NCBI RefSeq assembly: GCF_030684215.1
Contig: NZ_JAUXOV010000065.1
Location: 62,001-126,000 of the forward strand
Reading direction: 5' to 3'
Origin: Pseudotabrizicola sp.
Lineage (GTDB): Bacteria; Pseudomonadota; Alphaproteobacteria; Rhodobacterales; Rhodobacteraceae
DNA: 64,000 nucleotides
The position numbers were made by a program, and so were the translations under genes. Numbering within the stretch: the stretch's first letter is position 1; the number at the start of each line of letters is the position of its first letter. Below are positions 2,265 to 19,258 of the stretch, one piece after another. The notes beneath the pieces are model-generated. The model did not search any database. It was not told the DNA's origin and worked only from the letters and a program-made list of their open reading frames with translations.

Positions 2265-3068
2265 TCAGCCGACCCGTTGTTTCAGCGCCGCCGCGACCTG
2301 CCCCGGAAGGATGGCCGCGCAGGCTGCGTAACGCGGAACCAACCGGCGCGGGGCTGAAAGCGCGCGCCACAGCCATTCCAACGCCAGCTTGCGCATCCAG
2401 ACCGGCGCACGGATCTGCTGGCCCGCCACAAAGTCCAGCCCCGCGCCAAAGCCGCAAAAGCCGATCTGGGGCGTAAGTATTTGACCAAAGGCGGCAAACG
2501 CCTCTTGTCGGGGGGCGGAAAGCGAAACGATACACACCCGCGCGCCCGCCGCCTGCATCGCTTGCAACGCGGTTTGCGCCTCTGTGCCCGTGGGATCAAA
2601 CCCCATTTCTGGCGCGCCGGTCCAGACCACACGCAGGGTCGGGATCTCGGCCTGCAATTGCTGCGCTGCTTTTGCCAGCACATCTGGCTCAGAGCCGTAG
2701 AAGGCGACCGGCATCGCCTCATCGGCGGCAAGCTGCAACAGCGGGCGCAGCAGATCTGATCCGGGAACCAGCGCAACCGGACGACGGGCGATCCGGGACA
2801 GCCAGACAATCGGGTTGCCGTCTGCCACGATCAGATCCTGCGCCGCATAGGTTGCCCGGTAGCTGGCCGAGGCGCGAAGTTTGACAAGGTGATCAAGGTT
2901 GATCGTGGCCAGAGCAAAGCCCTGCCCCTTACGGAACCGCGCCCGGATTTCGACCAGCAGGCTGGGCTGGTCGGGCATGTTCACTGTAATCGTCTGATCT
3001 GGATAACGAAACTGCACGGCGGGCCTGCGAACTATGGACCGCGGCCTTTTAGCACGGCCAACTGGCAA
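2265..3068 (-). CDS. WecG/TagA/CpsF-family glycosyltransferase
   Basis: 267 residues matching the WecG/TagA/CpsF family (GT26), which transfers a sugar such as N-acetylmannosamine onto a polyprenyl-linked primer. Recognisable segments are TINLDHLVKLR, the active-site block IVADGNPIVWLSR, PVAFYGSEPDVL, and CGFGAGLDFVAGQQIRAP towards the C-terminus, where the membrane-binding tail of the family lies. An internal methionine (MPDQPSLLVEI, residue 31) could be the true start because it matches the family N-terminus better. It lies in the exopolysaccharide locus on the strand opposite to its neighbours and is a likely early transferase of the repeat-unit pathway. Confidence 0.85.
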   Translation of the reverse strand: MPVGRAKRPRSIVRRPAVQFRYPDQTITVNMPDQPSLLVEIRARFRKGQGFALATINLDHLVKLRASASYRATYAAQDLIVADGNPIVWLSRIARRPVALVPGSDLLRPLLQLAADEAMPVAFYGSEPDVLAKAAQQLQAEIPTLRVVWTGAPEMGFDPTGTEAQTALQAMQAAGARVCIVSLSAPRQEAFAAFGQILTPQIGFCGFGAGLDFVAGQQIRAPVWMRKLALEWLWRALSAPRRLVPRYAACAAILPGQVAAALKQRVG

Positions 3069-3728: not shown

Positions 3729-3921
3729 GGTTTTCTGGCCTTTCCGCAGCGCAGCGTGCCGCAAGACTTAGCCCTATAGCCCATGATGCAATCCAATGCC
3801 ACGGGGGGGCCGTGCCGTCTGTCTGCCGCATTCAAGGCGCGGTTGTGCCGTTTTAACGCGTCAAGACAAGCCGGACGATCCATGCTATCGCCAACCCCCG
3901 GAGAGCAGACACCCAGACGCC

Positions 3922-5328
3922 ATGCCCATTGCCAATTCGCTTGCCTATACAATGCTGGTCTTGTGGCCCTTTGTTTCGTGGATCCTGTTCACGAAGCTGG
4001 ATCCGGCACGCGCGTTGATCTGGACGGTGTTGGGCGCCTACATGCTGCTGCCCCCGGTCATTGCCATCGACATACCGATGGTGCCGGGGTTCAACAAATA
4101 TGTGGTGGCAAATCTCTCGGCGACGGCGGCGGTTGTCTTCTTGCTCAAACAGCGGGTAGAGTTTTTGCCGCAATCGACGCTTGGGCGGACGCTGATCGTC
4201 GTGTTCATCCTCAGCCCGTTTGCGACCGTTCTGACCAATGGCGACCAAATCTGGTTTCAGGCATCAATGCTGCCCGCGATGCGGATTTACGATTCCGTCG
4301 CTGTGGTCACCAATCAGGTCATCGCCTTGTTGCCGTTTCTTCTGGCCCGCAAGCTTCTGGCAACCGAAGACGCAATGCGGGCGATCATCGTGGCGCTGAT
4401 GGCCGCAGGTCTGGTCTATTCATTGCCAATGCTGTGGGAGTCGCGCATGTCTCCTCAGTTGAATCTGATGTTTTACGGATACTTCCAGCATGATTTCAGC
4501 CAGGCGATGCGCTACGGATCTTTCCGGCCGTTTGTGTTCATGCCCCACGGGCTGTGGGTTGCGTTCTTTGGCATGATGACCTTTGTGGCATCGGTGGTGA
4601 TCATGCGGGTCGGCCCTGCGATGTCGCGGCCAAGGCAGTTTGTGGTGGCGGGCTACCTGTTTATCGTTTTGCTGCTTTGCCGCAGCACCGGGCCTTTGAT
4701 TTACGCGGCCTTGCTGGTGGCTCTGATCCTGTTGGTATCGCGGCGTTGGCAGGTGTTGTTTGCGGCGGCGATGGTAGCCGTGGTGATTGCCTATCCGCTG
4801 CTGCGCGGGCTGCATCTGGTGCCGGTTGATGACATCCTGAACTTTGCGATGAGCCTGAACGAAGACCGTGGTCGGTCCTTGGCCTTCCGTATCCGAAGCG
4901 AAGAACTGTTGCTGGTGCGCGCCGAAGAACGGCCTTGGTTTGGCTGGGGGAACTATGGGCGGGGCATGCTGCACGATCCGGTGACGGGCCAGATCAACGT
5001 GATTGCCGATGGTGGCTGGATCATTGTTTTGGGCATGTTCGGCTGGTTTGGCTATATCGGGATGTTCGGGCTGTTGTCGTTGCCCGTTGCTCTGATGGCG
5101 CGTGAAGCGTGGCGGCAGTCTTCAGATGCGATTTCCCCCTACGCGGCGGGGGTAGTTCTGATTTTGGCAGCCAACCTGTTTGATCTGTTGCCCAATGATA
5201 CCATCGTCGCCTTTACCTGGCTGATGGCAGGCGCCGTTCTGGGCCATGCCGAGATGCTGCGCGCCAAACGCAAAGCGCCAGACGCCGCGCCGCCTGTGCC
5301 TCTCAGGTCGCAAAGGACCATTTTGTGA
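3922..5328 (+). CDS. Wzy/WaaL-like O-antigen polymerase or ligase
   Basis: A 468-residue integral membrane protein with about ten or more hydrophobic segments spread over its whole length and a large polar loop (about residues 300-350) containing EDRGRSLAFRIRSEEL and RPWFGWGNYGRG. This arrangement is that of the O-antigen ligase/polymerase (Wzy_C) family, which joins lipid-linked repeat units in the periplasm. ATG 3922 opens directly on the first membrane helix (MPIANSLAYTMLVLW); the frame extends upstream but without a plausible N-terminus. Its stop overlaps the GTG start of the next glycosyltransferase by 4 bases, showing translational coupling. Polymerase versus ligase cannot be decided from sequence. 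Confidence 0.8.
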   Translation: MPIANSLAYTMLVLWPFVSWILFTKLDPARALIWTVLGAYMLLPPVIAIDIPMVPGFNKYVVANLSATAAVVFLLKQRVEFLPQSTLGRTLIVVFILSPFATVLTNGDQIWFQASMLPAMRIYDSVAVVTNQVIALLPFLLARKLLATEDAMRAIIVALMAAGLVYSLPMLWESRMSPQLNLMFYGYFQHDFSQAMRYGSFRPFVFMPHGLWVAFFGMMTFVASVVIMRVGPAMSRPRQFVVAGYLFIVLLLCRSTGPLIYAALLVALILLVSRRWQVLFAAAMVAVVIAYPLLRGLHLVPVDDILNFAMSLNEDRGRSLAFRIRSEELLLVRAEERPWFGWGNYGRGMLHDPVTGQINVIADGGWIIVLGMFGWFGYIGMFGLLSLPVALMAREAWRQSSDAISPYAAGVVLILAANLFDLLPNDTIVAFTWLMAGAVLGHAEMLRAKRKAPDAAPPVPLRSQRTIL

Positions 5329-6617
5329 CCCCGAACTTCCGCCCGCGTGTCCTGTTGATTGCCGAAGCGGCAAACCCGGAATGGGTCTCTGTGCCGTTGG
5401 TCGGCTGGTCTTTGGTGCGCGCCTTGGCCAAGGTTGCGGATGTGCATGTCGTGACACAGGTGCGCAACCGTGATGCATTCCTGCGCGCGGGCATGGTCGA
5501 GGGCGCAGACTTTACCGCAATCGATTCCGAGGCACTCGCGCGTCCCTTGTGGAAGCTGGGCAACTTTTTGTCAGGCGGGCGCGGCGGCTGGACAATTCAG
5601 CAGGCAGTAGCGACGATCAGTTACCCGTATTTTGAACGGCTGGTCTGGCAACGCTTTGGCGCGAATATCCGTGCAGGGCACTATGATCTGGTGCACCGGG
5701 TCACGCCGTTGTCGCCCGTGCAACAAAGCCCGATTGCGACCAAGTGCAGGCGTGCAGGCGTGCCCTTTGTGCTGGGGCCGATCAATGGTGGCGTGCCTTG
5801 GCCAAAGGGCTTCGAGGCCGAGATGAGGCGTGAACGCGAATGGTTGTCCAAGGTGCGGGGCCTTTACCGCGCACTTCCGGGGCGGCAAGGCACGCTGCGG
5901 GCCGATGCCATTCTGTGCGGGTCACGTCAGACCATGCGCGACATTCCGGCAGCGCATCAGGACCGGGTGATCTACCTGCCGGAAAACGCGATTGATCCGG
6001 CGCGGTTCAATGCAACCGCCGTGCACGGCGGGCACGGGCCGATGCGCGCTTGTTTCATCGGGCGACTGGTGCCGCTCAAGGGCGTTGACATGTTGATCGC
6101 AGCGGCAGCGCCTTTGCTGCGCAACGGGCGTCTGGTGCTCGACATCATCGGTGACGGTGACATGATGGAACCGCTGCGCGCGCAGGCTGCCCCGTTTGGC
6201 GATGCGGTTGTGTTCCATGGCTGGAAAGACCACGCACAGGTGCAGGATATCGCCGCGCGCTGTCAGGTGCTGGCTTTCCCGTCAATCCGTGAATTTGGCG
6301 GTGGTGTCGTGCTGGAGGCGATGGCCCTTGGCCTTGCGCCGATCGTGGTCGATTACGCAGGTCCGGCAGAGTTGGTGACTGAAGATACCGGCTGGAAGGT
6401 GCCCATCACCGGGCGAAACGCTGTCATTGCGGGGCTGGCCGCGCGGTTGGCGCATTGCGTGGATCATCCGCAAGATGTGGCCGCCAAGGGCGCGCTGGCC
6501 CGCGCGCGCGTCGATGAACTTTTCACATGGAACCGCAAAGCCGCGCAGATTTTGCGCGTCTATCACTGGGTTCTGGACCCGGATTCACCCAAGCCAAACC
6601 TATTTGGGCAAGAATAA
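5325..6617 (+). CDS. Family 4 glycosyltransferase
   Basis: A 430-residue GT-B glycosyltransferase. The C-terminal nucleotide-sugar domain shows ACFIGRLVPLKGVDMLI (about 240-256), LDIIGDGDMMEPL and the GT4 signature EFGGGVVLEAMALGLAPIV (about 324-342), where the ExxxxE pair would bind the donor diphosphate. The N-terminal acceptor domain includes VHRVTPLSPVQQS and FVLGPINGGVPWP. The start is GTG, overlapping the stop of the polymerase gene (GTGA). It lies 53 bases before the polyketide synthase on the same strand, so the polysaccharide and polyketide genes may share a transcript. Confidence 0.9.
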   Translation: MTPNFRPRVLLIAEAANPEWVSVPLVGWSLVRALAKVADVHVVTQVRNRDAFLRAGMVEGADFTAIDSEALARPLWKLGNFLSGGRGGWTIQQAVATISYPYFERLVWQRFGANIRAGHYDLVHRVTPLSPVQQSPIATKCRRAGVPFVLGPINGGVPWPKGFEAEMRREREWLSKVRGLYRALPGRQGTLRADAILCGSRQTMRDIPAAHQDRVIYLPENAIDPARFNATAVHGGHGPMRACFIGRLVPLKGVDMLIAAAAPLLRNGRLVLDIIGDGDMMEPLRAQAAPFGDAVVFHGWKDHAQVQDIAARCQVLAFPSIREFGGGVVLEAMALGLAPIVVDYAGPAELVTEDTGWKVPITGRNAVIAGLAARLAHCVDHPQDVAAKGALARARVDELFTWNRKAAQILRVYHWVLDPDSPKPNLFGQE

Positions 6618-6670
6618 GTCAGGGCAGGTTCCTTAATTTGGTCAGGTTTGCTAGATAGTTGAGGGGTCGA

Positions 6671-9600
6671 ATGCGCTTGCCGAGTGTTACCCCCATGTCC
6701 GATTCCCTGTCGCCTAATAACCTGTCCGAAACCGACATCGCGATTGTCGGCATGGCGGCGCATGTTCCGGGGGCGGCCGATATCGGAGCCTACTGGCAAA
6801 ATCTGCGTGACGGGATCGAGTCTATCCGGGTGCTGGACGAGTCTGCCTTGCTTGCGGCAGGTGAATCGCCTGCGCGGATCGCAAAATCAAACTATGTGCC
6901 CGCCGCCGCTGTGCTGGACGGCTTCGAAGGGTTCGACGCCGATTTCTTCGGTTTTTCCCCGAAAGAGGCCGCGATCCTCGACCCGCAGCACCGCCATTTC
7001 CTTGAAGTCGCTTGGGAGGCGCTTGAAAACGCTGGCCATCCGCCCGAGAAATTCCCCGGCCAGATCGGCGTCTGGGCTGGTTGCGGGATGGGGTCGTATT
7101 TCTATTTCAACCTGTGTTCCCACCGCGATCTGGTCGATCAGACCGGCATGTTCCTGTTGCGCCACACCGGGAACGACAAGGATTTTCTGGCCACCCGCGT
7201 CAGCCATATCCTTGATCTGAAGGGGCCAAGCATCAATGTGCAGACCGCCTGTTCCACCAGTCTCGTGGCGGTGCATTACGCCACGCAGGCGCTGTTGAAC
7301 GGCGAATGTGACATGGCCTTGGCGGGCGGCGTCACCATCGAATTGCCTCACGCGCGCGGCTATCTCTATACCGAGGGCGAAATCCTGTCGCCCGATGGCC
7401 ATTGCCACGCCTTTGATCACCGCGCCCAAGGCACGGTCTTTGGCTCGGGCGCGGGCTGCGTGGTGCTGCGTCGCGCGGTCGATGCGGTGCGCGATGGCGA
7501 TCATATCTGGGCAATCATCAAAGGGTCTGCTGTCAACAATGACGGCGCTGCCAAGGCTGGCTATCTTGCACCATCGGTCGATGGTCAGGCCCGCTGCATT
7601 GCCGAAGCGCAGGCCATGGCCGGGGTATCGGCCGACAGCGTCAGCTATATCGAATGCCACGGCACCGGCACCTATCTGGGCGACCCGATAGAGGTCGCCG
7701 CGCTCACCGCCGCCTTTCGCGAAACTACCGATGCGGTCGGGTCATGCCGTATCGGCTCGGTCAAAACCAACATCGGCCATCTGGACACCGCCGCCGGGGT
7801 CGCCAGCCTGATCAAGGTGGCACTGGCACTGCATCACCGCGAACTGCCGCCCAGCCTTGGCTACGAGTCTCCGAACCCCGCCATCGACTTTGAAACCTCG
7901 CCCTTCCGCGTCAATGACCGGCTGACCGCCTGGAATGCGCCAGTGCTGCGCGCCGGTGTGAACTCGCTGGGCGTCGGCGGCACCAATGCCCATGCCGTGC
8001 TTCAGCAAGCCCCCGACCGCGCACCTTCTGCCCTCAGCGACTGGCCGTTTCAGCCTCTGGTCCTGTCGGCCCGCTCAAAGACGGCGCTCGATGCGGCCAG
8101 CACGCGCCTTGCCTCCCATCTGCGTGCCAACCCCGATCAACCTCTGGCCGATGTGGCCTATACCCTGAAAGACGGCCGCCGCGCCTTCGACAAACGCCGC
8201 GTGCTGGTGGCTGCCACCCATGCCGAGGCCGCAGCCATCCTTGACAGCGCCGATCCCCGCCGTGTCTTTACGCATGACTGGCTGGGTGATGACCCCGAGG
8301 TCGTCTTCATGTTCCCCGGCGGTGGCGCGCAATATGCGGGGATGGCGCGCGACCTGTACGAAACTGAACCCGTCTTTGCCGACTGGATGGATCGCGGCCT
8401 TGCCGTGCTGGAACCCAAACTCGATTACGACATACGTGCCCTCTGGTTGCCCGAAAAAGGCACCGGGGCGGCAGCGTCCGAGGCGCTGAAAAAGCCTTCG
8501 GTGCAACTGCCGCTTATCATGATCACTGAATATGCACTGGCCAAACTCTTTGAGTCATGGGGCGTCACCCCGACTGCCCTCGTTGGTCATTCAATGGGCG
8601 AAAACACCGCCGCCGCCCTCGCCGGCGTGATGAGCTTTGAAGACTGCATCGGTCTTGTCCACCTGCGCGGCACCCTGTTCGACACCATCGCACCGGGCGG
8701 TATGCTTTCGGTCCCCTTCTCCGAGCCCGACCTGCGCAAAGCCCTTGTCGATCTTGGCTTTTACCTTGGCGAAAACACTCCGGGGGGCGACAGTGCCGCG
8801 CCATTGGTCCAGAAACCACTGACGACGGGGTTGGCCCCCGGTTCGACACATCAGCTCGACATCGCTTCGGTCAATGCGCCCGATCTCTGCGTCGTCTCCG
8901 GCCCCGATCACACCCTCACAGCCCTTGCCGGAAGGCTCGCCGCAACAGGCGTCGAGACTCAGCGCATCGCCATCGACATTGCCGCCCATTCCGCAATGCT
9001 CCAGCCGATCCTTGCGCGCTTTGGCGATTATCTGCGCTCAATTCCCCTGCACCCGCCGCGCCTGCCGATCATCTCGAACCAAACCGGGGTGGCTCTGACG
9101 ACAGCACAGGCCACCGACCCCGACTATTGGGTGCGGCACCTGCGCGGCACGGTGAATTTCCGCGCTTGCATGGCCACGCTGATGGCAGAGCCGGGCCGCG
9201 TCTATATTGAGATGGGGCCGGGCCGGGCGCTCTCGTCGCTGGCGCAGGCCAATGGCGTGGCCTCGGGTCAGGTCATCCCGGCCTTGCGCCACCCCGACCA
9301 GCTTATGGCGGATGACGCATGGCACATGGTCACGCTGGCGCGGCTCTGGGCCTGCGGTGTTGCGGTGGACTGGGATCAGATCTGGGGCGAAGGGCCGCGC
9401 CAGCGTGTGCCGCTGCCAACCTATGCCTTTCAAAAAAAGCCCTATTTCATTGCCCCCGCCGTCGGCCAGACGGTAGAGGCAGCGGCCTTGCCCGCCCGCA
9501 TCAATGATGTGTCCGGCTGGGGCTGGGCCGCGCATTGGCGGCCAGTTGCGGCGGGCTTCGATCTGGATGATCTGGCCGACGCCCCGCCCGAGACGTGGCT

Positions 9601-12600
9601 GTTTTTTCTTGATGATACCGGGCTTTGTGCCACGGTCGCAGACCGTCTGGCTGCAGCAGGGCACCGGGTGGTGCGGGTGCGGTCTGGTGATGCCTTTTCC
9701 CGTGACAGCCGGGGCGATTACCGCCTGTCGCCAGAGCGCGGCCGCGAGGGTTACGACAGCCTGATCCGCGATCTGGTGTCGCGTGGGCTGGCCCCTTCAC
9801 GCATCGTGCATGGCTGGCTGGTGACGGACAAAGAAAGCTTCCGCCCCGGTTCCAGCTTTCTGCACCGCAATATTGAACAGGGCTTCTATTCCCTGCTGTT
9901 TCTGGCTCAGGCCCTTGCCGAAGAAAATCTGCCGCGCCCGATTCGTGTGACAGCGCTCACCTCTGGCGCAGCGCAGGTCCGGGGTGAGCCGTTGGCTTAT
10001 CCTGAAAAGGCGATGGTTCTTGGCCCGGCACGGGTGATCCCCCGCGAAGTTCCGGGCGTGCAGGTGGGGTTGCTCGATATTGGTCCCGGCGATGCCATTG
10101 GCGCGGTGCTGGAAGAGGTGTTGTCCGACGTGCCCACGATTTCCGCATGGCGGGGTGGGCGGCGCTATGAATCCGGGGTCCGGGCTGTGCCCCTGCCGGA
10201 TGGTGGCTTTGATTTGCCCAAAGGGGCCCATGTCCTGATCACCGGGGGCTTTGGAGGAATCGGGCTTACGGTGGCCGAAAGCCTGATCCGTCGCTTTGGT
10301 GCGAAGATAACCCTGATTGCGCGGCGCGCCCTGCCAGAGCGTGGGCTTTGGCCTGCCGCCCTTGCCAAAGCAGGCCCCGATGATCCGGTGGCACGGCGCA
10401 TTCTGGCACTGCAACGGCTAGAGGGCTTGGGTGGTGAGGTTCTGGTGGCCCGTGCAGATGTGGCCAATCTGGATGACATGCAGACGGCAAAGGCGGCGGG
10501 CGAAGCGCGCTTTGGCCCGGTTCATGCGGTCATTCATGCGGCTGGCGTGGTTGATGACGGGCCACTGATGACCAAATCCCCTGCCGAGGTCGAAGAGGTC
10601 TTTGCGCCCAAACTGCACGGCACGCAGGTGCTGGAACGGCTGTTTGCGGATGGGTCTCTGGCGCTGATGGTGCTGTTTTCCTCGACGTCGACCATCACCG
10701 GGCCTGCGGGACAGATCGACTATGTTGCGGCCAATGAATACCTTAATGCCTATGCAAAGGCGCGCGCTGGTGGAAAAACCAGAGTTGTCGCGCTGAACTG
10801 GGGCATCTGGCAGGGTGTGGGCATGGCCGCCGAGGCGCTGGCCGACCGCACAGGGCGCCCCGAGGCTCCGCGCATTCCGATCACAGCGCCGATGCTGGAC
10901 GAGCAAGGCTTTGACCGTCACGGCAACCGGGTGTTCTGGGCCAGCTATGGCCCTGACCGTTGGGTGCTGGATGGCCACCGCACCAAGGACGGCACGGCGC
11001 TTATCCCCGGCACCGGCTATCTGGAAATCATGGCCGAGGCATGGGCCGCCCAAGGCGAAGGCGATGCGTTCGAGATCCGCGATCTGACATTCTTCCGCGC
11101 TTTGGACGTGCCCGGCGACGCGCGTGAGGTGCGGGCGCGGCTGGTCCGTTCAGACGAAGGATATGGCTTTGATCTGCACTCGGGCCAACAGGTCAAAGGG
11201 CGCATGGGCTGGCTTCAACATGCGTCTGCCCGGTTGATGCCTTTGGCGGGCGTGGCCCCCCGGATTGATGTCACTGCAATTGCAGCGCGCTTGCCCGCGC
11301 CAGAGCTCGGCGCAGGGCTGGTCAGCCCACAAGAGGCACATCTGAACTTTGGCCCACGCTGGCGCGTGCTGTCGTCCCGGACCATTGGCGCGGGCGAAGG
11401 TCTGGCGCATCTGGCGCTTCCGGGCGCGTTCCAGCCAGAAACGGATCAGGGCTGGAAGCTTCACCCCGCGCTGCTCGATCTTGCGACAGGCTGGGCGATG
11501 GGGCTGATTGATGGCTATCGGCCCGATCACCTGTGGGTACCGGTGTCTTATGCCGGGGTGCGTGTCTATCGCCCTCTGCCCGCACAGATTGTCAGCCACG
11601 TGCGCAATTCGGGGGCCAATTCGGCAGCGCGTGGTACGGCGGCATTTGATGTGACACTTGCCACACCAGATGGAGAAGTCTGTATTGAAATCAACGGCTT
11701 CACCATTCATCGCCTGGAGGGTGGGTTAAAGCTGGCCCCACCCGATCCGCGCGGGTTGGAATATGACGCGCCGCAGTCAAAGGCGATATCGCCCGCCGAA
11801 GAACGCCTGCTGCACGCATTTTCGCAAGGCATTCGCCCCGAAGAAGGCGCAGACGCCTTTGGTCGGGCCGTCGCTCTGGGTCGCAGTCAGATCATCGTCT
11901 CGTCACTGGACCTGCCCGCACTGATCCGCGGGGCGGTAGCAGTCGAGGAGACACGGGCCGAAGGCACCAGTTTTGAGCGTCCCGATCTGGACAGCGATTA
12001 TACCGAACCACGCAATGATATAGAGCGGACGCTGGTCGGTTTTTGGCAAGACCTGCTGGGCGTGGCCAAGGTCGGGGTGGACGACAGCTTCTTTGACCTT
12101 GGCGGTCACAGTCTGATAGCGGTGCGGCTGTTTGCGATGGTCAAAAAGGCCTACCGCATTGATTTCCCGATCTCGGTGCTGTTTGAGGCGCCCACAATTG
12201 CCGCCTGCGCCGCACTGATAGACGATCAGATCGGCCCGCAGGACAGTGCCGAACCCAAACCCGAAGCGGCGAAGGCCCCGACGCGGCGGTTTACCCATAT
12301 TGTGCCGATGCACCGGGGCGAAGGCGGCGCGCGCACGCCGTTCTTCCTTGTGGCGGGCATGTTCGGCAATGTGCTGAACCTGCGGCATCTGGCGCAGCTT
12401 TTGGGCGGAGACCGGCCGTTTTACGGGCTTCAGGCGCGGGGGCTTTATGGCGATGCGGTGCCGCACACCGATTTTGTGACGGCTGCGCGCGACTACATTG
12501 CGGAAATGCGGCAGGTGCAGCCGGTCGGCCCGTATCTGCTGGGCGGCTTTTCGGGTGGCGGGCTGATCGCATGGGAAATCGCGCGTCAGCTAGAGGCTGT

Positions 12601-13132
12601 GGGCGAAGCCGTGCCGCTGGTGGTGCTGCTGGACACTCCGGTGCCGTTGCGGCCCGCGCTGTCAAAGGCGGATAAACTGATGATCCGGCTGGCCGAACTG
12701 CGGGCCGAGGGGCCAGCGTTCTTTGCGCGCTGGTGGCGCGAAAAACAGGCGTGGAAGCGCGCGCAGGCGGATGTATCCGATCAGGGCGAGGCCGAGTTCC
12801 ACAATGCTGCCATTGAGTCAGCCTTCCGGGCGGCGCTGCCCCTGTATGACATGACGCCGCGCAACGGCGCGACGGTGCTGTTCCGCCCGCCGCTGGACAA
12901 GCACTGGCAGGTGACGGGTGGGCGCTGGGTAAGTGCGGCGCGCGAATTTGTGCTGCATGACAATGACCTGACACGCTTTGCGCCGGGGCTAGAGGTGATC
13001 GAGGTGCCGGGCGATCATGACAGCATGGTGCTGGAACCCAACGTGCGCGTGCTGTCGGCACGGATGCGCGTGGTGATCGAGTCGGTCGAGGGGCCGGAAC
13101 CCGTGACCCGGCTGGCAACGGCGGCAGAATAG
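6671..13132 (+). CDS. Type I polyketide synthase, KS-AT-KR-DH-ACP-TE
   Basis: One module on a 2153-residue protein. KS (about 18-440) has Cys194 in VQTACSTSL and the two histidine motifs ECHGTGTYLGDP and KTNIGHLD. AT (about 545-870) has Ser641 in GHSMGE, but AAHS stands where HAFH or YASH normally indicates the extender. KR (about 940-1400) has TGGFGGIG near 1191 and a putative catalytic Tyr1351. A DH-like domain follows, with His1436 (HRTKDGTALIPG) and Asp1603 (HPALLDLATG). The ACP has Ser1814 in DLGGHSL. The TE has Ser1961 in GGFSGGG and His2116 in PGDHDSM. Placing DH after KR is unusual for cis-AT modules. The start is ATG 6671 after GAGGGG; ATG 6695 is possible. A single condensation followed by hydrolysis or cyclisation is predicted. 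Confidence 0.95.
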   Translation: MRLPSVTPMSDSLSPNNLSETDIAIVGMAAHVPGAADIGAYWQNLRDGIESIRVLDESALLAAGESPARIAKSNYVPAAAVLDGFEGFDADFFGFSPKEAAILDPQHRHFLEVAWEALENAGHPPEKFPGQIGVWAGCGMGSYFYFNLCSHRDLVDQTGMFLLRHTGNDKDFLATRVSHILDLKGPSINVQTACSTSLVAVHYATQALLNGECDMALAGGVTIELPHARGYLYTEGEILSPDGHCHAFDHRAQGTVFGSGAGCVVLRRAVDAVRDGDHIWAIIKGSAVNNDGAAKAGYLAPSVDGQARCIAEAQAMAGVSADSVSYIECHGTGTYLGDPIEVAALTAAFRETTDAVGSCRIGSVKTNIGHLDTAAGVASLIKVALALHHRELPPSLGYESPNPAIDFETSPFRVNDRLTAWNAPVLRAGVNSLGVGGTNAHAVLQQAPDRAPSALSDWPFQPLVLSARSKTALDAASTRLASHLRANPDQPLADVAYTLKDGRRAFDKRRVLVAATHAEAAAILDSADPRRVFTHDWLGDDPEVVFMFPGGGAQYAGMARDLYETEPVFADWMDRGLAVLEPKLDYDIRALWLPEKGTGAAASEALKKPSVQLPLIMITEYALAKLFESWGVTPTALVGHSMGENTAAALAGVMSFEDCIGLVHLRGTLFDTIAPGGMLSVPFSEPDLRKALVDLGFYLGENTPGGDSAAPLVQKPLTTGLAPGSTHQLDIASVNAPDLCVVSGPDHTLTALAGRLAATGVETQRIAIDIAAHSAMLQPILARFGDYLRSIPLHPPRLPIISNQTGVALTTAQATDPDYWVRHLRGTVNFRACMATLMAEPGRVYIEMGPGRALSSLAQANGVASGQVIPALRHPDQLMADDAWHMVTLARLWACGVAVDWDQIWGEGPRQRVPLPTYAFQKKPYFIAPAVGQTVEAAALPARINDVSGWGWAAHWRPVAAGFDLDDLADAPPETWLFFLDDTGLCATVADRLAAAGHRVVRVRSGDAFSRDSRGDYRLSPERGREGYDSLIRDLVSRGLAPSRIVHGWLVTDKESFRPGSSFLHRNIEQGFYSLLFLAQALAEENLPRPIRVTALTSGAAQVRGEPLAYPEKAMVLGPARVIPREVPGVQVGLLDIGPGDAIGAVLEEVLSDVPTISAWRGGRRYESGVRAVPLPDGGFDLPKGAHVLITGGFGGIGLTVAESLIRRFGAKITLIARRALPERGLWPAALAKAGPDDPVARRILALQRLEGLGGEVLVARADVANLDDMQTAKAAGEARFGPVHAVIHAAGVVDDGPLMTKSPAEVEEVFAPKLHGTQVLERLFADGSLALMVLFSSTSTITGPAGQIDYVAANEYLNAYAKARAGGKTRVVALNWGIWQGVGMAAEALADRTGRPEAPRIPITAPMLDEQGFDRHGNRVFWASYGPDRWVLDGHRTKDGTALIPGTGYLEIMAEAWAAQGEGDAFEIRDLTFFRALDVPGDAREVRARLVRSDEGYGFDLHSGQQVKGRMGWLQHASARLMPLAGVAPRIDVTAIAARLPAPELGAGLVSPQEAHLNFGPRWRVLSSRTIGAGEGLAHLALPGAFQPETDQGWKLHPALLDLATGWAMGLIDGYRPDHLWVPVSYAGVRVYRPLPAQIVSHVRNSGANSAARGTAAFDVTLATPDGEVCIEINGFTIHRLEGGLKLAPPDPRGLEYDAPQSKAISPAEERLLHAFSQGIRPEEGADAFGRAVALGRSQIIVSSLDLPALIRGAVAVEETRAEGTSFERPDLDSDYTEPRNDIERTLVGFWQDLLGVAKVGVDDSFFDLGGHSLIAVRLFAMVKKAYRIDFPISVLFEAPTIAACAALIDDQIGPQDSAEPKPEAAKAPTRRFTHIVPMHRGEGGARTPFFLVAGMFGNVLNLRHLAQLLGGDRPFYGLQARGLYGDAVPHTDFVTAARDYIAEMRQVQPVGPYLLGGFSGGGLIAWEIARQLEAVGEAVPLVVLLDTPVPLRPALSKADKLMIRLAELRAEGPAFFARWWREKQAWKRAQADVSDQGEAEFHNAAIESAFRAALPLYDMTPRNGATVLFRPPLDKHWQVTGGRWVSAAREFVLHDNDLTRFAPGLEVIEVPGDHDSMVLEPNVRVLSARMRVVIESVEGPEPVTRLATAAE

Positions 13133-13134
13133 CC

Positions 13135-14100
13135 ATGGCAAGTGTTCTGACTGTCATCCTGAACTGGCGCACCGCCGAAATGACCCTGCGCGCAACCGAA
13201 GCAGCCCTTGTGGCGATGGACGGCATCGACGGTGGATTGACCATCGTGGACAACGACTCGGGCGATGGCAGTTTTGAAAGGCTGAGCGCCGAAGTTGCTG
13301 CGCGGGGATGGCGTCGGGTGCGCGTGCTGCAATCAGGGCGCAACGGCGGCTTTGGGGCTGGCAATAACTTTGGCATCCGCGCGGGTTTGCCCGCAGGTGA
13401 AACCCCCGACTACATCTACCTGCTCAATTCCGACGCGTTCCCCGCACCAGACGCAATCAAGGCACTGCTGATGCATCTGGAGTCGCATCCGCAAACGGGC
13501 TTTGCGGGCAGCCGTATTCACGGCGAAGACGGCCTGCCTCATCACACCGCCTTTCGCTTTCCCTCCATTGGCGGCGAATTCGAACAGGCGGCGCGGCTTG
13601 GCCCGATCTCGCGGATGCTGCGCGGGTCGATAGTGGCCCCGCCTTTGCCGGTGGTGACAGGCCGGGTGGACTGGCTGGCCGGGGCCAGTCTGATGATGCG
13701 GCAATCCGTGCTGGACCGCATCGGCCTGTTCGACGAGATGTTCTTTTTGTATTTCGAGGAGACAGAGCTTTGCCTGCGCGCGGCGCGGGCCGGGTTTCCC
13801 ACCGATTATGTGGTCGAAAGCCGGGTCGCGCATATCGGCTCCGTGTCCACGGGCATGAAGACATGGGCGCGGATTCCGCAGTTCTGGCTTGAATCGCGTT
13901 TGTATTATTACACCAAGTCGCATGGCAGGGCCTATGCGGTGGTGGCCACGTTGGCGCATGTGGCAGGCGGCTTGATCTGGCGAGCCAGGGCCTTGATTCA
14001 GCGCAAGGATTTTATCGATCCGGCATATTATCTTTACGACATGTCTGCCCATGCCGTGCGCTGGGTGGCTTCCGGGTTTCGGCCTGTTGCGGAAAAGTAA
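13135..14100 (+). CDS. Family 2 glycosyltransferase, rhamnosyltransferase-like
   Basis: 321 residues, GT2 of the WcaE/rhamnosyltransferase type. Motifs are SVLTVILNWRTAEM at the N-terminus, TIVDNDSGDGSFE, GAGNNFGIRAG, the donor or metal site YLLNSDAFPAPDA, WLAGASLMMRQS and the general-base block FDEMFFLYFEETELCLRA. It starts 2 bases after the stop of the polyketide synthase and ends 27 bases before the NRPS, so it sits inside the biosynthetic operon. It may glycosylate the assembly-line product or take part in the flanking polysaccharide pathway; the sequence does not separate the two. Confidence 0.88.
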   Translation: MASVLTVILNWRTAEMTLRATEAALVAMDGIDGGLTIVDNDSGDGSFERLSAEVAARGWRRVRVLQSGRNGGFGAGNNFGIRAGLPAGETPDYIYLLNSDAFPAPDAIKALLMHLESHPQTGFAGSRIHGEDGLPHHTAFRFPSIGGEFEQAARLGPISRMLRGSIVAPPLPVVTGRVDWLAGASLMMRQSVLDRIGLFDEMFFLYFEETELCLRAARAGFPTDYVVESRVAHIGSVSTGMKTWARIPQFWLESRLYYYTKSHGRAYAVVATLAHVAGGLIWRARALIQRKDFIDPAYYLYDMSAHAVRWVASGFRPVAEK

Positions 14101-14127
14101 GGTCGCATCTGCGGCAAGGAGAGAGTC

Positions 14128-17100
14128 ATGACCGTGTTAAGCGCACTTCTGATCGGCAATGAAAGCCTGACACAGGCTTGCGGTGCGGCGTGGTTGGCGC
14201 GGGGGCATCGGCTGGCGGCGGTGGTGACACGCCACGCCGATGTGCGGGCCTGGGCCGTGGCGCAGGGGTTGCGCGTAGAGACACCGGGCACGGGGCTGGA
14301 ACTGCGGCTGGCAGGTGTGGCCTGTGACTGGCTTTTGTCGGTCGCCAACCTGTCGCTGGTGCCAGCGGGCGTGCGCGCGATGGCGACACGCGGGGCGGTG
14401 AACTTTCACGATGGGCCGTTGCCGCGTTATGCAGGTCTGAACGCTCCGGTCTGGGCGTTGCTGGCAGCCGAAGCGCAGCACGGGATCACATGGCATCTGA
14501 TGACGGATGGCGTTGATGAGGGCGACATTCTGGAGCAGCGGCTGTTCGACATTGCCCCAGGGGAAACCGCGCTGTCGCTGAACACCCGCTGCTTTGAGGC
14601 AGGGGTAGACAGTTTTCCGGCGCTGATGGCGCAGCTTGAAGTCGGACTGCGCCCGGTGCCGCAAGAATTCAGCCAGCGCAGCGTCTATGCGCGGGCCGAT
14701 CGCCCTGCTGCGTTCGGGCGGCTGGATTTTGCTGTACCAGCAGGCGCGGTGGCGCAGATGGTGCGCGCGTTGGACCATGGCCGCTATTGGAACCCTCTGA
14801 CCACGGCAAAGATCGCCGGGTCGTTTGGGGTGCTGAATGTGGGAGCGGCGGATGTGGTTGCGGGCGCGGGCGTGCCGGGCACCGTGCTGTCGTCTTCGGC
14901 TGATGGTGTGGTTGTGGCGTGCGGGTCGGATGCTGTGCGGTTGCACCGGCTGACCTGTCAGGCGCGCGGTCTGGCCGTATGCCCGTCCACGGTGCGTGAT
15001 GTGTCGGCGCTGGCGGATGCAGAGGCATTGACGGCAGCCCTTGCGGCTTTGGTGCCGTTCGAAGCCAGGGTGCGCAAGCGGCTGGCCGCGATGGCTCCGG
15101 CTACGGTAACCGGGACAGGCTCCGGTCAGGGCTGGCTGCGGATTGACTTCGCGGGTGATGCGGCGTCGCTGGCCGTGGCTTGTGCGCGGGTATCGGGGCA
15201 AGACAACCCTGATCTGGCGTTGTCGCTCGCGCCGGGGCTGCCGGGGTATAGCAGCGGCTGGGTGCCGGTGCAGGTTGCAACAGATGGCACGGTGGCTGCG
15301 GCCAAGGCCGTGCTGCGGGCGGAACGCGGCCCTGGCTTTGCGTTGGACCTGATGACGCGCGACGTGGGGCTGGCCGATCTGGCCATGCCACAGGTCGGCG
15401 TGTCCCTGCACGGCGCGCCGGTGCCGGGCTCGGTGATCACGCTGACGGATGGCGCCCTGCTGGCCGACCTGTCGCGCATCTCTGAACCCGAGGCGCGGGC
15501 GCTGGCCGAGCGTCTGGCGTTTGTGGCTGCGGCAGCGGAAGATGACATGCCGGTGTCCGCGCTGCCGATGCTGTCGCCGCGCGAACGTCATGCTGTCTTG
15601 CATGACGTAAACCAGACGCTGGCCGCACGCGCATCATACTGTGTGCATCAGGCGTTCGAGGCACAGGTATCGCGCTCGCCGGATGCGCCCGCGATCAGTT
15701 TTGAGTCGGTAGCACTGACCTATACTGCGCTGAACGCGCGGGCGAACCGGGTTGCGCATGTGCTGCGCGGCATGGGCGTCGGACCGGGGGTTCTGGTCGG
15801 TCTGCACATCCGCCGCTCTGTGGATATGCTGGTCGGAGCCTTGGCCATTCAAAAGGCCGGAGGTGCCTATGTGCCAATGGACCCGGCCTATCCGGCAGAC
15901 CGGACGGCGCTGTATATTGAGGATTCCGGCTGTCCGGTGATCGTGACAACCAGCGATCTGGTGGGCGGCTTGCCGGGGCGCGCGGTCGCATTGTGCCTTG
16001 ATACCGACGGACGGGTTCCGTCAGCGTCTGACGCTAACCCCGACTCTGGTGTCGGGCCGGGCGATCTGGCCTATATGATCTATACCTCTGGCTCGACCGG
16101 GCGCCCCAAAGGCGTGATGGTGGAACACCGCAACGTGGTGAACTTCTTTACTGGGATGGACGACCGGATCGGCCCAGAGGCTGGCGTTTGGCTGGCTGTG
16201 ACATCGCTGTCGTTTGATATCTCGGTGCTGGAACTGTTCTGGACGCTGGCGCGCGGATTCAAGGTGGTGATCTCATCCGATGAGAACCGGGCCTTGGTGT
16301 CGTCTGGGCGGATCACATCGGCACAAAAGATGGATTTTTCCATATATTACTGGGGCAACGATGACGGCGCAGGGCCAAAGAAGTATGAGCTTTTGCTGGA
16401 AGGTGCCAAGTTTGCCGACACCCACGGCTTTGTTGCGGTCTGGACGCCCGAGCGGCATTTCCATGCTTTTGGCGGGCCATATCCAAACCCGTCGGTGACG
16501 GGCGCTGCGGTGGCTGCGATCACGAAGAATATCGGTGTGCGGGCCGGGTCTTGTGTGGTGCCGCTGCACCATCCGGCGCGGATTGCCGAAGAATGGGCGG
16601 TGATCGACAACCTGACCAACGGGCGGGCGGGGATTGCGATTGCCAGCGGCTGGCAGCCAGATGACTTCGTGCTGCGGCCTGAAAACACCCCGCCAAAGAA
16701 CAAGGCAGCGATGTATGAGGCAGCCGATCAGGTCCGCCGCCTGTGGCGCGGTGAGGGCGTTGATTTTGCCAAGGCGGACGGGTCGATGTTCACGGTCGTG
16801 ACGCAACCGCGCCCAGTATCTGCAGAGCTGCCCATGTGGGTTACAACGGCGGGTAACCCCGAGACGTGGCGCGAAGCGGGCGAGATGGGGGCCAATGTGC
16901 TGACCCACCTGCTGGGCCAGTCGGTCGATGAGGTAGCCGGAAAGATCAAAATCTACCGTGAAGCGCGCGCCAAGGCAGGGCATGACCCCGAAGCCGGGAC
17001 AGTGACCTTGATGCTGCACACCTTTGTCGGCCGGGACCGTGATCAGGTTCGGCGGGTGGCTGAGGGGCCGATGAAAGCCTATCTGGCGGCGGCTGTGGGG

Positions 17101-18636
17101 CTGGTCAAGCAATACGCCTGGGCCTTTCCGGCGTTCAAGAAACCGCAGGGCGTGACCAACCCGATGGACATCGACCTGCGCACGCTGAGTGCAGAGGAAA
17201 ACGATGCCATTCTTGATTTCGCCTTCCAGCGGTATTTTGAGGATTCGGGCTTGTTTGGCACCGTCGATGACGCGCTGGCACGGGTAGAGCAGCTCAAGCG
17301 TATTGGCGTGGGCGAAGTGGCCTGCCTGATCGACTATGGCATCGCGCCCGAACAGGTAATGGAGGCGCTTTATCCTCTGGCCGAGGTGGTGCGGCGGGCC
17401 AATGCCGGGGGGGGCGTCGAGGCGGATGATTATTCGATCGCCGCGCAGTTGATCCGGCACAAGGTCACGCATCTTCAATGCACACCGTCGATGGCGCGGA
17501 TGATTGCGATGAACGACGACTCGCGCGTGGCACTGGCGGGCGTTAAGACCGTTATGGTGGGTGGTGAAGCATTGCCGGGGGCCTTGGTGCAGGATTTGCG
17601 CAAGGCTTCCGGGGCGCGCATCCTGAACATGTATGGCCCGACCGAGACAACGATCTGGTCGTCGGTTGAGGAAGTGGGCGCAGTGGAAGGCGTGTCGAAC
17701 ATCGGCACGCCGCTGGCGAACCAGCAGATGTATGTGCTGGACGATGCGCTGACCCCGGTTCCGGTGGGCACGGCGGGCGAGCTGTGGATTGGCGGCGATG
17801 GCGTCACGCGCGGCTATTGGCAGCGCGATGACTTGACGGCGGAACGGTTTGTGGCCGATCGTTTCGTGACGGCGGAGCGCGCTTGCCCTTGGGGCGCCCG
17901 GATGTATCGTACCGGCGATCTGGTGCGCAGGCGGGGGGATGGCAAGATCGACTTCCTTGGCCGCACTGATCATCAGGTGAAACTGCGCGGTTACCGGATC
18001 GAGCTTGGCGAGATTGAATCGGTGCTGGAGGCGCAGCTGGGGGTGTCTCAGGCCGTGGTGGTGGCGCGCGAGGATACGCCCGGCGACCTGCGGCTGGTGG
18101 CCTATGTCACCGGCACGGCCCATGAGGCGGGGTTGCGGGCTGAACTGGCGACAGCCTTGCCTGAGCACATGATGCCCGCGCATTTCGTGACGCTGCAAAG
18201 CTTTCCCCTGACCCCGAACCGGAAGGTGGACCGCAAGGCGCTGCCCGCGCCGAGCGCGCGTCTGGCCGAAGCGGCGGCCTTTGTGGCACCCGACTCGGAT
18301 GTGGAATCGCAGATTGCCGCGATCTGGGCGCGGGTGCTGGGCGTGCCCAAAGTGGGGGCAAAGGACAATTTCTTTGCGCTGGGCGGGCATTCCTTGTTGG
18401 CCGTGCAGGCGCATCGTGAAATCCGCGATGCGCTGGGGGCGGCAAAGCTGTCGATCACAGATATCTTCCGCTTTCCCACATTGCAGGCGTTGGCGGCGCA
18501 TTTGGATGACGGACCAAAGCCTGTGATGGCGGCTGCGGCAAAGCCTGCCGGGCTGGCTGTGCAGGCCGATGCGCGCACTGACGCCATGGCGCGCAGGCGC
18601 GCGATGCGGGCCGGGCGGACCGGTGTAGATGCCTGA
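14128..18636 (+). CDS. NRPS: formyltransferase, A domain with inserted luciferase-like monooxygenase, PCP
   Basis: 1502 residues behind a strong AAGGAGAGA ribosome site. Residues 1-310 form a methionyl-tRNA-formyltransferase-like domain with Asn92, His94 and Asp130 spaced as in the catalytic triad of that fold. Residues 320-480 look like a shrunken condensation-type segment without HHxxxDG. The adenylation domain begins near 510: A3 is [12 protein letters not shown] (about 650) and A4 is [10 protein letters not shown]. It is interrupted at about 730-1090 by a bacterial luciferase-like, flavin-dependent monooxygenase domain of the MupA/Atu3671 type, then resumes with CTPSMARM, A5 NMYGPTETT (1166), A7 YRTGDLV, A8 [11 protein letters not shown] and A10 [17 protein letters not shown] follows, with Ser1422 in ALGGHSL. 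No thioesterase is present. Confidence 0.93.
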
Positions 18637-19258
18637 GGCAGCACTTCTGGCGGCCTTGCGCCAGATGGTGCCCGAGGGTGCCGGGCTGGGCTGGGCAGAT
18701 GCGGCGCTGGATCATCCCTTGATGCCGGGCGAAAGCCTGCCGGGGGCGGTGCCTGCCCGGCTGCGAGAGTTTGCTGCAGGCCGAACTGCGGCGCGCATGG
18801 CATTGGCGGCAATCGGAGCCGGTTCGGTGGCGCTACCGAAAGCGGCTGACCGGACCCCGGTCTGGCCTGCTGGCATAATCGGGTCGATCACGCATTCCGG
18901 GCGGCACTGTCTCGCCGTCGCGATGCTTGCTGGCCAGTTCCGAGGCATTGGCATTGATCTGGAAGAAGACGGCCCGTTGGACTCCGCGCTGTGGGACACG
19001 ATCCTGCGCCCGGAGGAACGGGGCCAGATGACGGGCGCGCTTGCCAAACGGGTGTTTAGTGCCAAGGAGGCTGCCTTTAAGGCGCAATATCCGGTCAGCC
19101 GCAGCCTGTTCGATTTTGATGTGATGCGGGTGGACCTGCAAGACACTCTGTTCACGGCGATCTTTATGCAGGCGGTGCCGCCATTTGCGTCGGGTGACCG
19201 GATTGCGGGGCGGACGGCGCGTGTCGGGGGACATGTGCTGACGCTGGCCCATGTGTAA
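18629..19258 (+). CDS. 4'-phosphopantetheinyl transferase, EntD/Sfp type
   Basis: A 209-residue enzyme that moves phosphopantetheine from coenzyme A onto the serines of carrier proteins. It carries the magnesium-binding [13 protein letters not shown] and the [13 protein letters not shown] block, together with [15 protein letters not shown], all diagnostic of the EntD/Sfp family. Its ATG lies inside the last codons of the NRPS gene (8-base overlap), so it is translationally coupled. It very probably primes the ACP of the polyketide synthase and the PCP of the NRPS, making the locus self-contained for carrier-protein activation. Confidence 0.93.

Follow-up and report, generated by a model that had tools for sequence, protein, structure and literature searches.

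The window analysed here is a stretch of 64,000 nucleotides from Pseudotabrizicola sp. (assembly GCF_030684215.1, contig NZ_JAUXOV010000065.1, positions 62,001 to 126,000 of the forward strand). Its subject is a pair of genes, a type I polyketide synthase (PKS) and a nonribosomal peptide synthetase (NRPS), that are encoded with, and co-occur with, the Wzy/Wzx proteins, glycosyltransferases and bacterial tyrosine kinase (BY-kinase) of an exopolysaccharide (EPS) locus. The original prediction, made from the sequence alone, had described a near self-contained NRPS-PKS pair. The operon proved real and conserved, but a family 2 glycosyltransferase (GT2) gene stands between the two members, and the EPS setting had been left out. 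The picture of a near self-contained small-molecule pathway was not borne out, the genes sitting in an EPS locus and tracking its Wzy. The features of the locus are listed below.

96-1196, - strand: CpsD/BY-kinase-like polysaccharide tyrosine autokinase of the EPS locus (TIGR03018/TIGR01007 below cut-offs; ParA/CbiA fold)
1261-2262, + strand: GT2 glycosyltransferase of the EPS locus (PF00535)
2265-3068, - strand: WecG/TagA/CpsF glycosyltransferase (PF03808, 152 bits; TIGR00696 above cut-off)
3796-5328, + strand: Wzy-like polysaccharide polymerase or O-antigen ligase family membrane protein (PF04932, E 2.8e-5, below cut-off)
5325-6617, + strand: family 4 glycosyltransferase (GT4), EpsH-like (NF041879, 475 bits, below the cut-off of 800)
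6671-13132, + strand: type I PKS, ketosynthase (KS), acyltransferase (AT), ketoreductase (KR), dehydratase (DH), acyl carrier protein (ACP) and thioesterase (TE) (Pfam; catalytic residues)
6731-8008, + strand: KS domain of the PKS (PF00109/PF02801; Cys-His-His in 43/43)
8303-9250, + strand: AT domain of the PKS (PF00698)
10229-10813, + strand: KR domain of the PKS (PF08659)
10922-11725, + strand: DH domain of the PKS, after the KR (PF21089/PF14765; His and Asp in 41/43 and 67/67)
12029-12220, + strand: ACP of the PKS (PF00550)
12344-13033, + strand: TE of the PKS (PF00975; Ser-His-Asp in 65/67)
13135-14100, + strand: GT2 glycosyltransferase between the PKS and the NRPS (PF13641/PF00535; same position in 70/80 named-genome loci)
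14128-18636, + strand: NRPS with formyltransferase, probable condensation (C) domain remnant, adenylation (A) domain split by a luciferase-like monooxygenase (LLM), and peptidyl carrier protein (PCP) (Pfam/NCBIfam; AlphaFold2; Foldseek)
14128-14985, + strand: formyltransferase domain of the NRPS with its C-terminal domain (PF00551, PF02911; Asn-His-Asp in 44/46 and 69/69)
14995-15642, + strand: apparent C-domain remnant of the NRPS, probably the C-terminal lobe, without HHxxxDG (AlphaFold2 pLDDT 92.8; Foldseek matches to C domains)
15655-16332, + strand: first half of the A domain, motifs to a4 (PF00501)
16336-17388, + strand: LLM, a MupA/Atu3671-type FMN-dependent monooxygenase inserted between a4 and a5 (TIGR04020; PuwE 6KET, 349 bits)
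17425-18243, + strand: second half of the A domain, a5 to a10 (PF00501/PF13193; signature DILQMGMIWK)
18310-18504, + strand: PCP of the NRPS (PF00550)
18629-19258, + strand: Sfp-type phosphopantetheinyl transferase (PPTase) (PF17837/PF01648; overlaps the NRPS by 8 bases)

The Wzy, GT4, PKS, GT2, NRPS and PPTase genes follow one another on the + strand, never more than about 55 bases apart, and the run was therefore read as one operon. The PPTase is joined to it by the 8-base overlap, as previously described; one other PF01648 match was found in the host genome, at C68. The Wzy-like gene is the sole match to PF04932 (Wzy_C) in that genome. Family scans placed the WecG-type and GT2 glycosyltransferases and the CpsD-like kinase to the left of the operon, and a sugar transferase and more glycosyltransferase-like genes lie upstream of the window. 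The three genes scanned to the right were unrelated (an S49 peptidase, a short-chain dehydrogenase/reductase and UvrC). Promoter-like sites numbered 4 versus 3.8 in shuffled sequence and terminator-like sites 22 versus 14.7 +/- 3.8, and no inference was made from either.

Conservation of the operon was examined in a family sample of 295 genomes, 143 of which gave NRPS matches at E ≤ 1e-30. A total of 109 of the 143 were counted as NRPS-positive, including fragments and one genome of clade B (G144); the other 34, among the matches listed, looked like A-domain-only matches of other NRPSs. Among 385 genomes drawn from across the class, six others matched the NRPS at E ≤ 1e-200, and four of these six belong to the same family. 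When named genomes were scanned with the region of the formyltransferase, at least 590 stretches were returned, at least 579 of them relatives, and the best 80 were kept as loci; these partly overlap the family genomes, and the two sets are not independent. The PKS, GT2 and NRPS genes stood in this order on one strand at 70 of the 80 loci. Nine of the remaining ten had the PKS and NRPS adjacent, with the GT2 elsewhere or not seen, and one was too short to include the PKS. Residue counts were taken from alignments that excluded fragments shorter than 900 aa (46 NRPS rows), 1500 aa (43 PKS rows) and 1300 or 1900 aa (named-genome rows). Full-length homologues, the same operon order and nearly invariant catalytic residues ruled out chance or mis-annotation as the source of the pair.

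The association with EPS genes was measured in regions of about 20 kb, searched for polysaccharide machinery other than glycosyltransferases. At least one EPS gene was found in 36 of 37 operon regions and at least two in 31, versus none in 20 control regions taken one each from 20 of the same genomes (Fisher 1.7e-14). For the sole EPS-negative operon region (L061, genome G276), its contig holds a Wzy match at a distance of about 22 kb. An EPS gene was likewise present at 64 of the 80 named-genome loci, and at 59 of the 64 loci that are at least 18 kb long. Six of the 80 are labelled Burkholderiales; the four from Hydrogenophaga carry a WecG-type gene (two with a glycosylphosphotransferase in addition), and no EPS gene was found by this search at the other two, L150 and L165. 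At the genome level, Wzy was found in 101 of the 109 genomes with the NRPS and in 11 of the 186 without it (Fisher 1.2e-55, kinship ignored). In the 93 genomes where the positions of the two were compared, they shared a contig in 80 and lay within 30 kb of each other in 74. Consistent with these counts, all five annotated plasmid loci, three from Rhodobacterales and two from Hyphomicrobiales, lie among EPS genes. A polysaccharide role of the pair is strongly suggested by this gene context.

The PKS open reading frame (6659-13132) opens at a TTG at 6659, and an ATG follows at 6671. Pfam confirmed the predicted single KS-AT-KR-DH-ACP-TE module (KS, residues 25-402; AT, from 549; KR, 1191-1385; DH, 1422-1689; ACP, 1791-1854; TE, from 1896), and no loading domain was found in the Pfam scan of the protein. 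In the first PKS set of 43 rows, which includes a row from outside the family (L068) and a truncated one (L056), the KS Cys-His-His residues were kept in all 43, the KR residues in 42 and the DH and TE residues in 41 each. The KS Cys, AT Ser, KR Lys/Ser/Tyr, DH His/Asp and ACP Ser were intact in all 67 named-genome rows, and the TE triad Ser-His-Asp in 65. The spacing of the DH motif is one residue longer than the textbook form, so the DH is likely, though not certainly, active. By its predicted catalytic residues, the protein is a candidate reducing type I PKS extension module.

In the NRPS, Pfam and NCBIfam identified the N- and C-terminal formyltransferase domains (Formyl_trans_N/C), an AMP-binding domain in two parts, an LLM at residues 737-1087 and a PCP; the same scans gave no match to PF00668 (the C-domain family) or to a TE. 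The earlier description of these domains thus stood, except that the protein does carry what appears by its fold to be the remnant of a C domain (residues about 290-505), treated below. The LLM, which matched TIGR04020 at 484 bits (cut-off 244), sits between motif a4 (near residue 697) and motif a5 (near 1168), and its closest solved relative is PuwE.

With motif anchors and the residue numbering of PheA, the A-domain signature was read as DILQMGMIWK, for which glycine is the predicted substrate. Its D, I, L, Q, G and W were kept in all 46 NRPS rows, the window included, and DILQ[M/L/F]GM[I/V]WK was found in 69 of 69 further rows, 16 of which have exactly DILQLGMIWK. In a signature survey, four glycine A domains with a monooxygenase (MOX) all had DILQLGMIWK (PMC12283262). 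In myxothiazol and melithiazol biosynthesis, a monooxygenase is inserted between a4 and a5 of a glycine A domain (PMC10204066); it hydroxylates the glycine alpha carbon, after which breakage of the N-C bond leaves a glyoxylyl thioester (PMC10204066 and a second paper). Solanimycin retains hydroxyglycine, and its insert lies between a8 and a9 (PMC10204066). For the PuwE monooxygenase, formation of a 2-hydroxy acyl chain has been proposed (PMC4219810). The window insert is of the kind reported to hydroxylate the alpha carbon of glycine.

The genes of the myxothiazol and melithiazol glycine A-MOX modules are MtaG and MelG. The window NRPS resembles these modules in its glycine-type signature and in an FMN monooxygenase between a4 and a5. 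Unlike them, it has no upstream C domain with PF00668 or HHxxxDG, the formyltransferase and the remnant fold standing there instead, and it has no TE; its unit would pass to the PKS rather than end the chain. LgrA, of linear gramicidin biosynthesis, was the top solved match of the whole protein, and the two share the order formyltransferase, A, PCP and the Asn-His-Asp triad. LgrA is not known to have a domain between its formyltransferase and A domains or inside the A domain, whereas the window NRPS has the probable remnant in the first place and the LLM in the second. The window protein further differs in its glycine signature, in the KS that comes next, and in its formyltransferase, which is nearer to Met-tRNA formyltransferase (64 bits) and ArnA (54 bits) than to LgrA (22-23 bits). 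For this reason, action of the formyltransferase on a sugar stays a rival reading, against which its fusion to an A domain and PCP favors an aminoacyl group. The TIGR04020 LLM is shared with Atu3671 of fabrubactin and other lines of the MupA/Atu3671 type; unlike at Atu3671/fabrubactin, the gene tables of the five annotated loci, themselves incomplete, list no siderophore or TonB receptor gene. A siderophore cluster was not favored, as no iron genes were among the annotated features of those five, the loci to which that search extended.

Residues of about 290-505 of the NRPS gave no Pfam match. An AlphaFold2 model of the region, built from an alignment of 23 sequences, had a mean pLDDT of 92.8, and a Foldseek search of the PDB returned 27 matches at E ≤ 0.001, all of them chains with condensation-type domains. 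These included Txo1, McyB, RzmA, DhbF, EntF and PvdL, along with FmoA3 and X domains, which we take to be condensation-type. The fit was loose (TM-score by query 0.39-0.57; root mean square deviation 5.9-9.3). By BLAST, residues 387-718 could be aligned to the other NRPS of the genome, over the end of its C domain and its A domain. Profile-profile comparison with three C domains gave a probability of 27% confined to the last 60 columns, a profile search against solved chains yielded a single weak match (E 0.22), and the HHxxxDG motif was absent from the region. Because of the fold, and of the BLAST alignment of its second half, the region seems to be part of a C domain, probably the C-terminal lobe; the catalytic N-terminal lobe would have been replaced by the formyltransferase. 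We did not find, in the literature looked at, a description of a formyltransferase and C-domain remnant ahead of a glycine-type A domain with a monooxygenase insert.

The order in which the two proteins act was indicated by their relatives. In three more distant relatives, those of the clade B genomes G144, G632 and G574, the NRPS gene is followed directly by a PKS gene on the same strand. This order, and KR and DH residues intact in 67 of 67 rows, support the earlier proposal that the NRPS is the loading unit and that the PKS would extend once with reduction and dehydration. The scanned PKS of G632 has the domains KS-AT-KR-DH-ACP-TE and that of G144 KS-AT-KR-DH-ACP-C-A-PCP-TE. At L088:453-9692, a PKS fused to C-A-PCP-TE directly follows a formyltransferase-A-LLM-PCP gene and has an alpha/beta-hydrolase-like neighbor; a similar gene adjoins the G632 pair (L091:9260-10099).

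The nearest named relatives of the window NRPS are from Pseudotabrizicola, and the best 80 named-genome loci include Hydrogenophaga pseudoflava and other Burkholderiales. Plasmid records with matches came from Aminobacter, Shinella, Ruegeria, Parasedimentitalea and Paracoccus, among others. In a quick tree of the 46 NRPS rows, the five Burkholderiales sequences grouped together (SH-aLRT 100) and formed with Rhodobacterales a group of 41 rows, separate from the two Hyphomicrobiales rows (SH-aLRT 99). The branching at the root of the 41-row group does not place the Burkholderiales within Rhodobacterales. This suggests that the locus may have been transferred between classes. In the Hydrogenophaga loci L193, L153, L156 and L175, a PKS-GT2-NRPS-PPTase operon is found in Betaproteobacteria, with an ATPase-like gene (motif KPFSIQPDP) upstream in L153 and L193.

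Several relatives deviate from the common form. At L071:4712-14964, the NRPS lacks the LLM and is otherwise whole, and its PKS lacks the DH and has all three catalytic residues of the KR replaced. A dependence between LLM and DH was considered and rejected: L071 was the one case found among 394 genomes at E ≤ 1e-200, and as a single event its co-loss proves little. L070 also lacks the LLM, with the formyltransferase triad lost and the PKS split. The NRPS homologues of L015, L029 and others have a single in-frame TGA within the match, possibly draft errors or pseudogenes. A protein of about 300 aa with an HLGHSLVG-like motif recurs near the operon (L067:16249-17184, L075:24608-25501, L156:20081-21025); it is SGNH-hydrolase-like by eye, and Pfam gave no match for the L067 copy, the sole one scanned.

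The pair is proposed to be a fixed part of a Wzx/Wzy-type EPS system, making a C4 acyl group or a derivative of it for the polysaccharide, a reading whose chances we consider evenly balanced. The product would probably decorate the slime chemically and not be an antibiotic-like compound in free form. In the proposed pathway, the NRPS would load glycine onto its PCP, and the formyltransferase would formylate the glycine amino group, standing in for an upstream acyl donor. Since the formyl cap would thereby take the role of the acyl chain delivered by a C domain, the inserted LLM would meet an N-acylglycyl thioester, whose alpha carbon it would oxygenate. The unit may be kept as N-formyl-alpha-hydroxyglycyl, or may collapse to a glyoxylyl thioester with loss of formamide, before it passes to the PKS. 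One malonyl extension, ketoreduction and dehydration would give a C4 alpha,beta-unsaturated acyl group, which the TE would free or hand on and which would substitute the polysaccharide. Each of these chemical steps, the use of malonyl included, is one that we infer. A more detailed form of the proposal, which we offer tentatively and with considerable doubt, is a dedicated EPS assembly line common to alpha- and betaproteobacteria. In it, N-formylglycine, sacrificial or retained, would be turned by the A-domain monooxygenase into a carbinolamide or glyoxylyl starter. From this the PKS would make a reactive acyl group, a C4 enal or one of the hydroxy-pyrrolinone type, to be placed on the EPS, maybe cross-linking or functionalizing it.

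Several observations weigh against the proposal that the product is made for the polysaccharide. The counts of association with EPS genes and Wzy take no account of phylogeny, and 16 of the 80 named-genome loci showed no EPS gene, five of them being at least 18 kb long. In the clade B genomes G144 and G632, the same pair of NRPS and PKS modules occurs and no EPS match lies nearby, which means that this chemistry can do without a polysaccharide; G574 of the same clade also gave no match in the EPS search, and genes near its pair look by eye like sugar-nucleotide enzymes. No acyltransferase dedicated to attachment to the polysaccharide was identified, and attachment itself is a step that we infer. 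The AT is assumed to take malonyl as the extender. The TE that the PKS itself carries would fit the release of a free acid, and in Aminobacter (L073:11822-13165) a TolC-family gene adjoins the PKS, which makes it possible that a free product is exported.

These last points bear on the alternative that the pair makes a free small molecule, an N-formyl and possibly hydroxylated C4 acid or its cyclized form, secreted or acting as a signal and co-regulated with biofilm matrix genes. The terminal TE with its nearly invariant triad, the clade B pairs and the exporter genes near two annotated loci fit such a product; the second of these loci is that of Shinella, where type I secretion genes lie a few kb from the PKS (L074:6803-10325). 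The tight tracking of Wzy across genera, the glycosyltransferase inside the operon and the EPS linkage kept in three orders despite changed gene order argue the other way, and we judge the alternative unlikely, though worth serious attention.

A second alternative arises from the C-A-PCP-TE NRPS of the host genome. The original prediction had named joint action of the NRPS with a C domain elsewhere in the genome as evidence that could overturn it; a protein with such a domain was found, and it may work with the pair. It contains the single PF00668 match of the genome, has the signature DVENIGGITK, and is encoded on another contig (L077:6843-12574; G000:C73:146842-152573, outside the window). 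The gene touches, on the same strand, a Wzx-type flippase gene that is the only strong match of the genome to PF13440 (161.8 bits, the other match being 24 bits). The flippase search was limited to this family, to which the window EPS locus gave no match. The same gene pair is present in the sister genome G135. C-A-PCP-TE matches at E ≤ 1e-120 were found in 11 of the 295 genomes; all eight that reached 1000 bits or more, the full-length homologues, are in operon-carrying genomes (8/109 versus 0/186, Fisher 2.9e-4). A gene of the C-A-PCP-TE type comes immediately after the NRPS gene in G126 and stands 9 kb upstream of the PKS in P. liaowanqingii. From this distribution and placement, the assembly line of the host genome may extend beyond the NRPS-PKS pair. 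In a three-part line, formyl-(hydroxy)glycine, one ketide and an amino acid would be joined and released by the TE of the second NRPS for use in the EPS, and the C-A-PCP-TE fusion in the G144 PKS is in keeping with it. However, the gene is absent from most genomes with the operon, and the contrast falls to 8/109 versus 3/186 (p 0.016) when three weaker matches (404-515 bits) in genomes without the operon are included. No EPS query match was found near the gene in G038, G200, G178 and one G222 copy, the window PKS has a TE of its own, and identity of the C-A-PCP-TE protein to the G144 fusion is about 28%. We hold the three-part line to be improbable.

More doubtful still is the reading that the product primes the polysaccharide, anchors it in a lipid-like way or terminates its chain, and is not a substituent repeated along it. 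The same EPS linkage data apply, and the output of one module fits a stoichiometric cap, but initiation is already provided for by a sugar transferase and a transferase of the WecG type. Co-localization by joint transfer alone, with no functional tie to EPS, is very improbable: the grouping of Hydrogenophaga with Rhodobacterales, apart from the two Hyphomicrobiales rows, does indicate a locus that seems to move between classes, but the pair is kept with EPS genes in three orders beside differing neighbors (Wzy upstream in some, Wzx in others), and NRPS and Wzy co-occur at the genome level even where the two lie apart.

The statement that this exact arrangement is not a described pathway was not contradicted by the literature. 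No publication was found on the operon product or tying the genes to EPS, although subscription literature was thinly covered and this is weak evidence of absence. The nearest account is of Paracoccus marcusii CP157, in which an uncharacterised NRPS/type 1 PKS hybrid is listed on the 225-kb plasmid pCP157_02 (PMC8273931). A P. marcusii plasmid record of 225,058 bases (from Cancer pagurus; H13) matched the window NRPS with 81% coverage and 55% identity in three pieces; like the window operon, it names an LLM-NRPS, a PKS and a GT2 under the match, and unlike the window NRPS it names a separate formyltransferase gene. The record is probably pCP157_02, and the CP157 hybrid cluster this operon or a relative of it. 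In Phaeobacter inhibens, the locus tags of a PKS (Inhi_1972) and an NRPS (Inhi_1974) suggest the order PKS, one gene, NRPS, as in the window (PMC4062626).

In that genome survey, such genes were counted as an uncharacterised NRPS/PKS secondary-metabolite cluster, the CP157 cluster was treated as a possible antimicrobial source, and the word 'polysaccharide' is absent from the main text (PMC8273931). The NRPS and PKS offer a small two-protein system for direct assay of the fate of an N-acyl-alpha-hydroxyglycyl thioester. If the role in EPS is true, the product is to be sought on the polymer and not in solvent extracts. If these genes belong to EPS synthesis, a block of the 'orphan clusters' of Rhodobacterales would be matrix biology.

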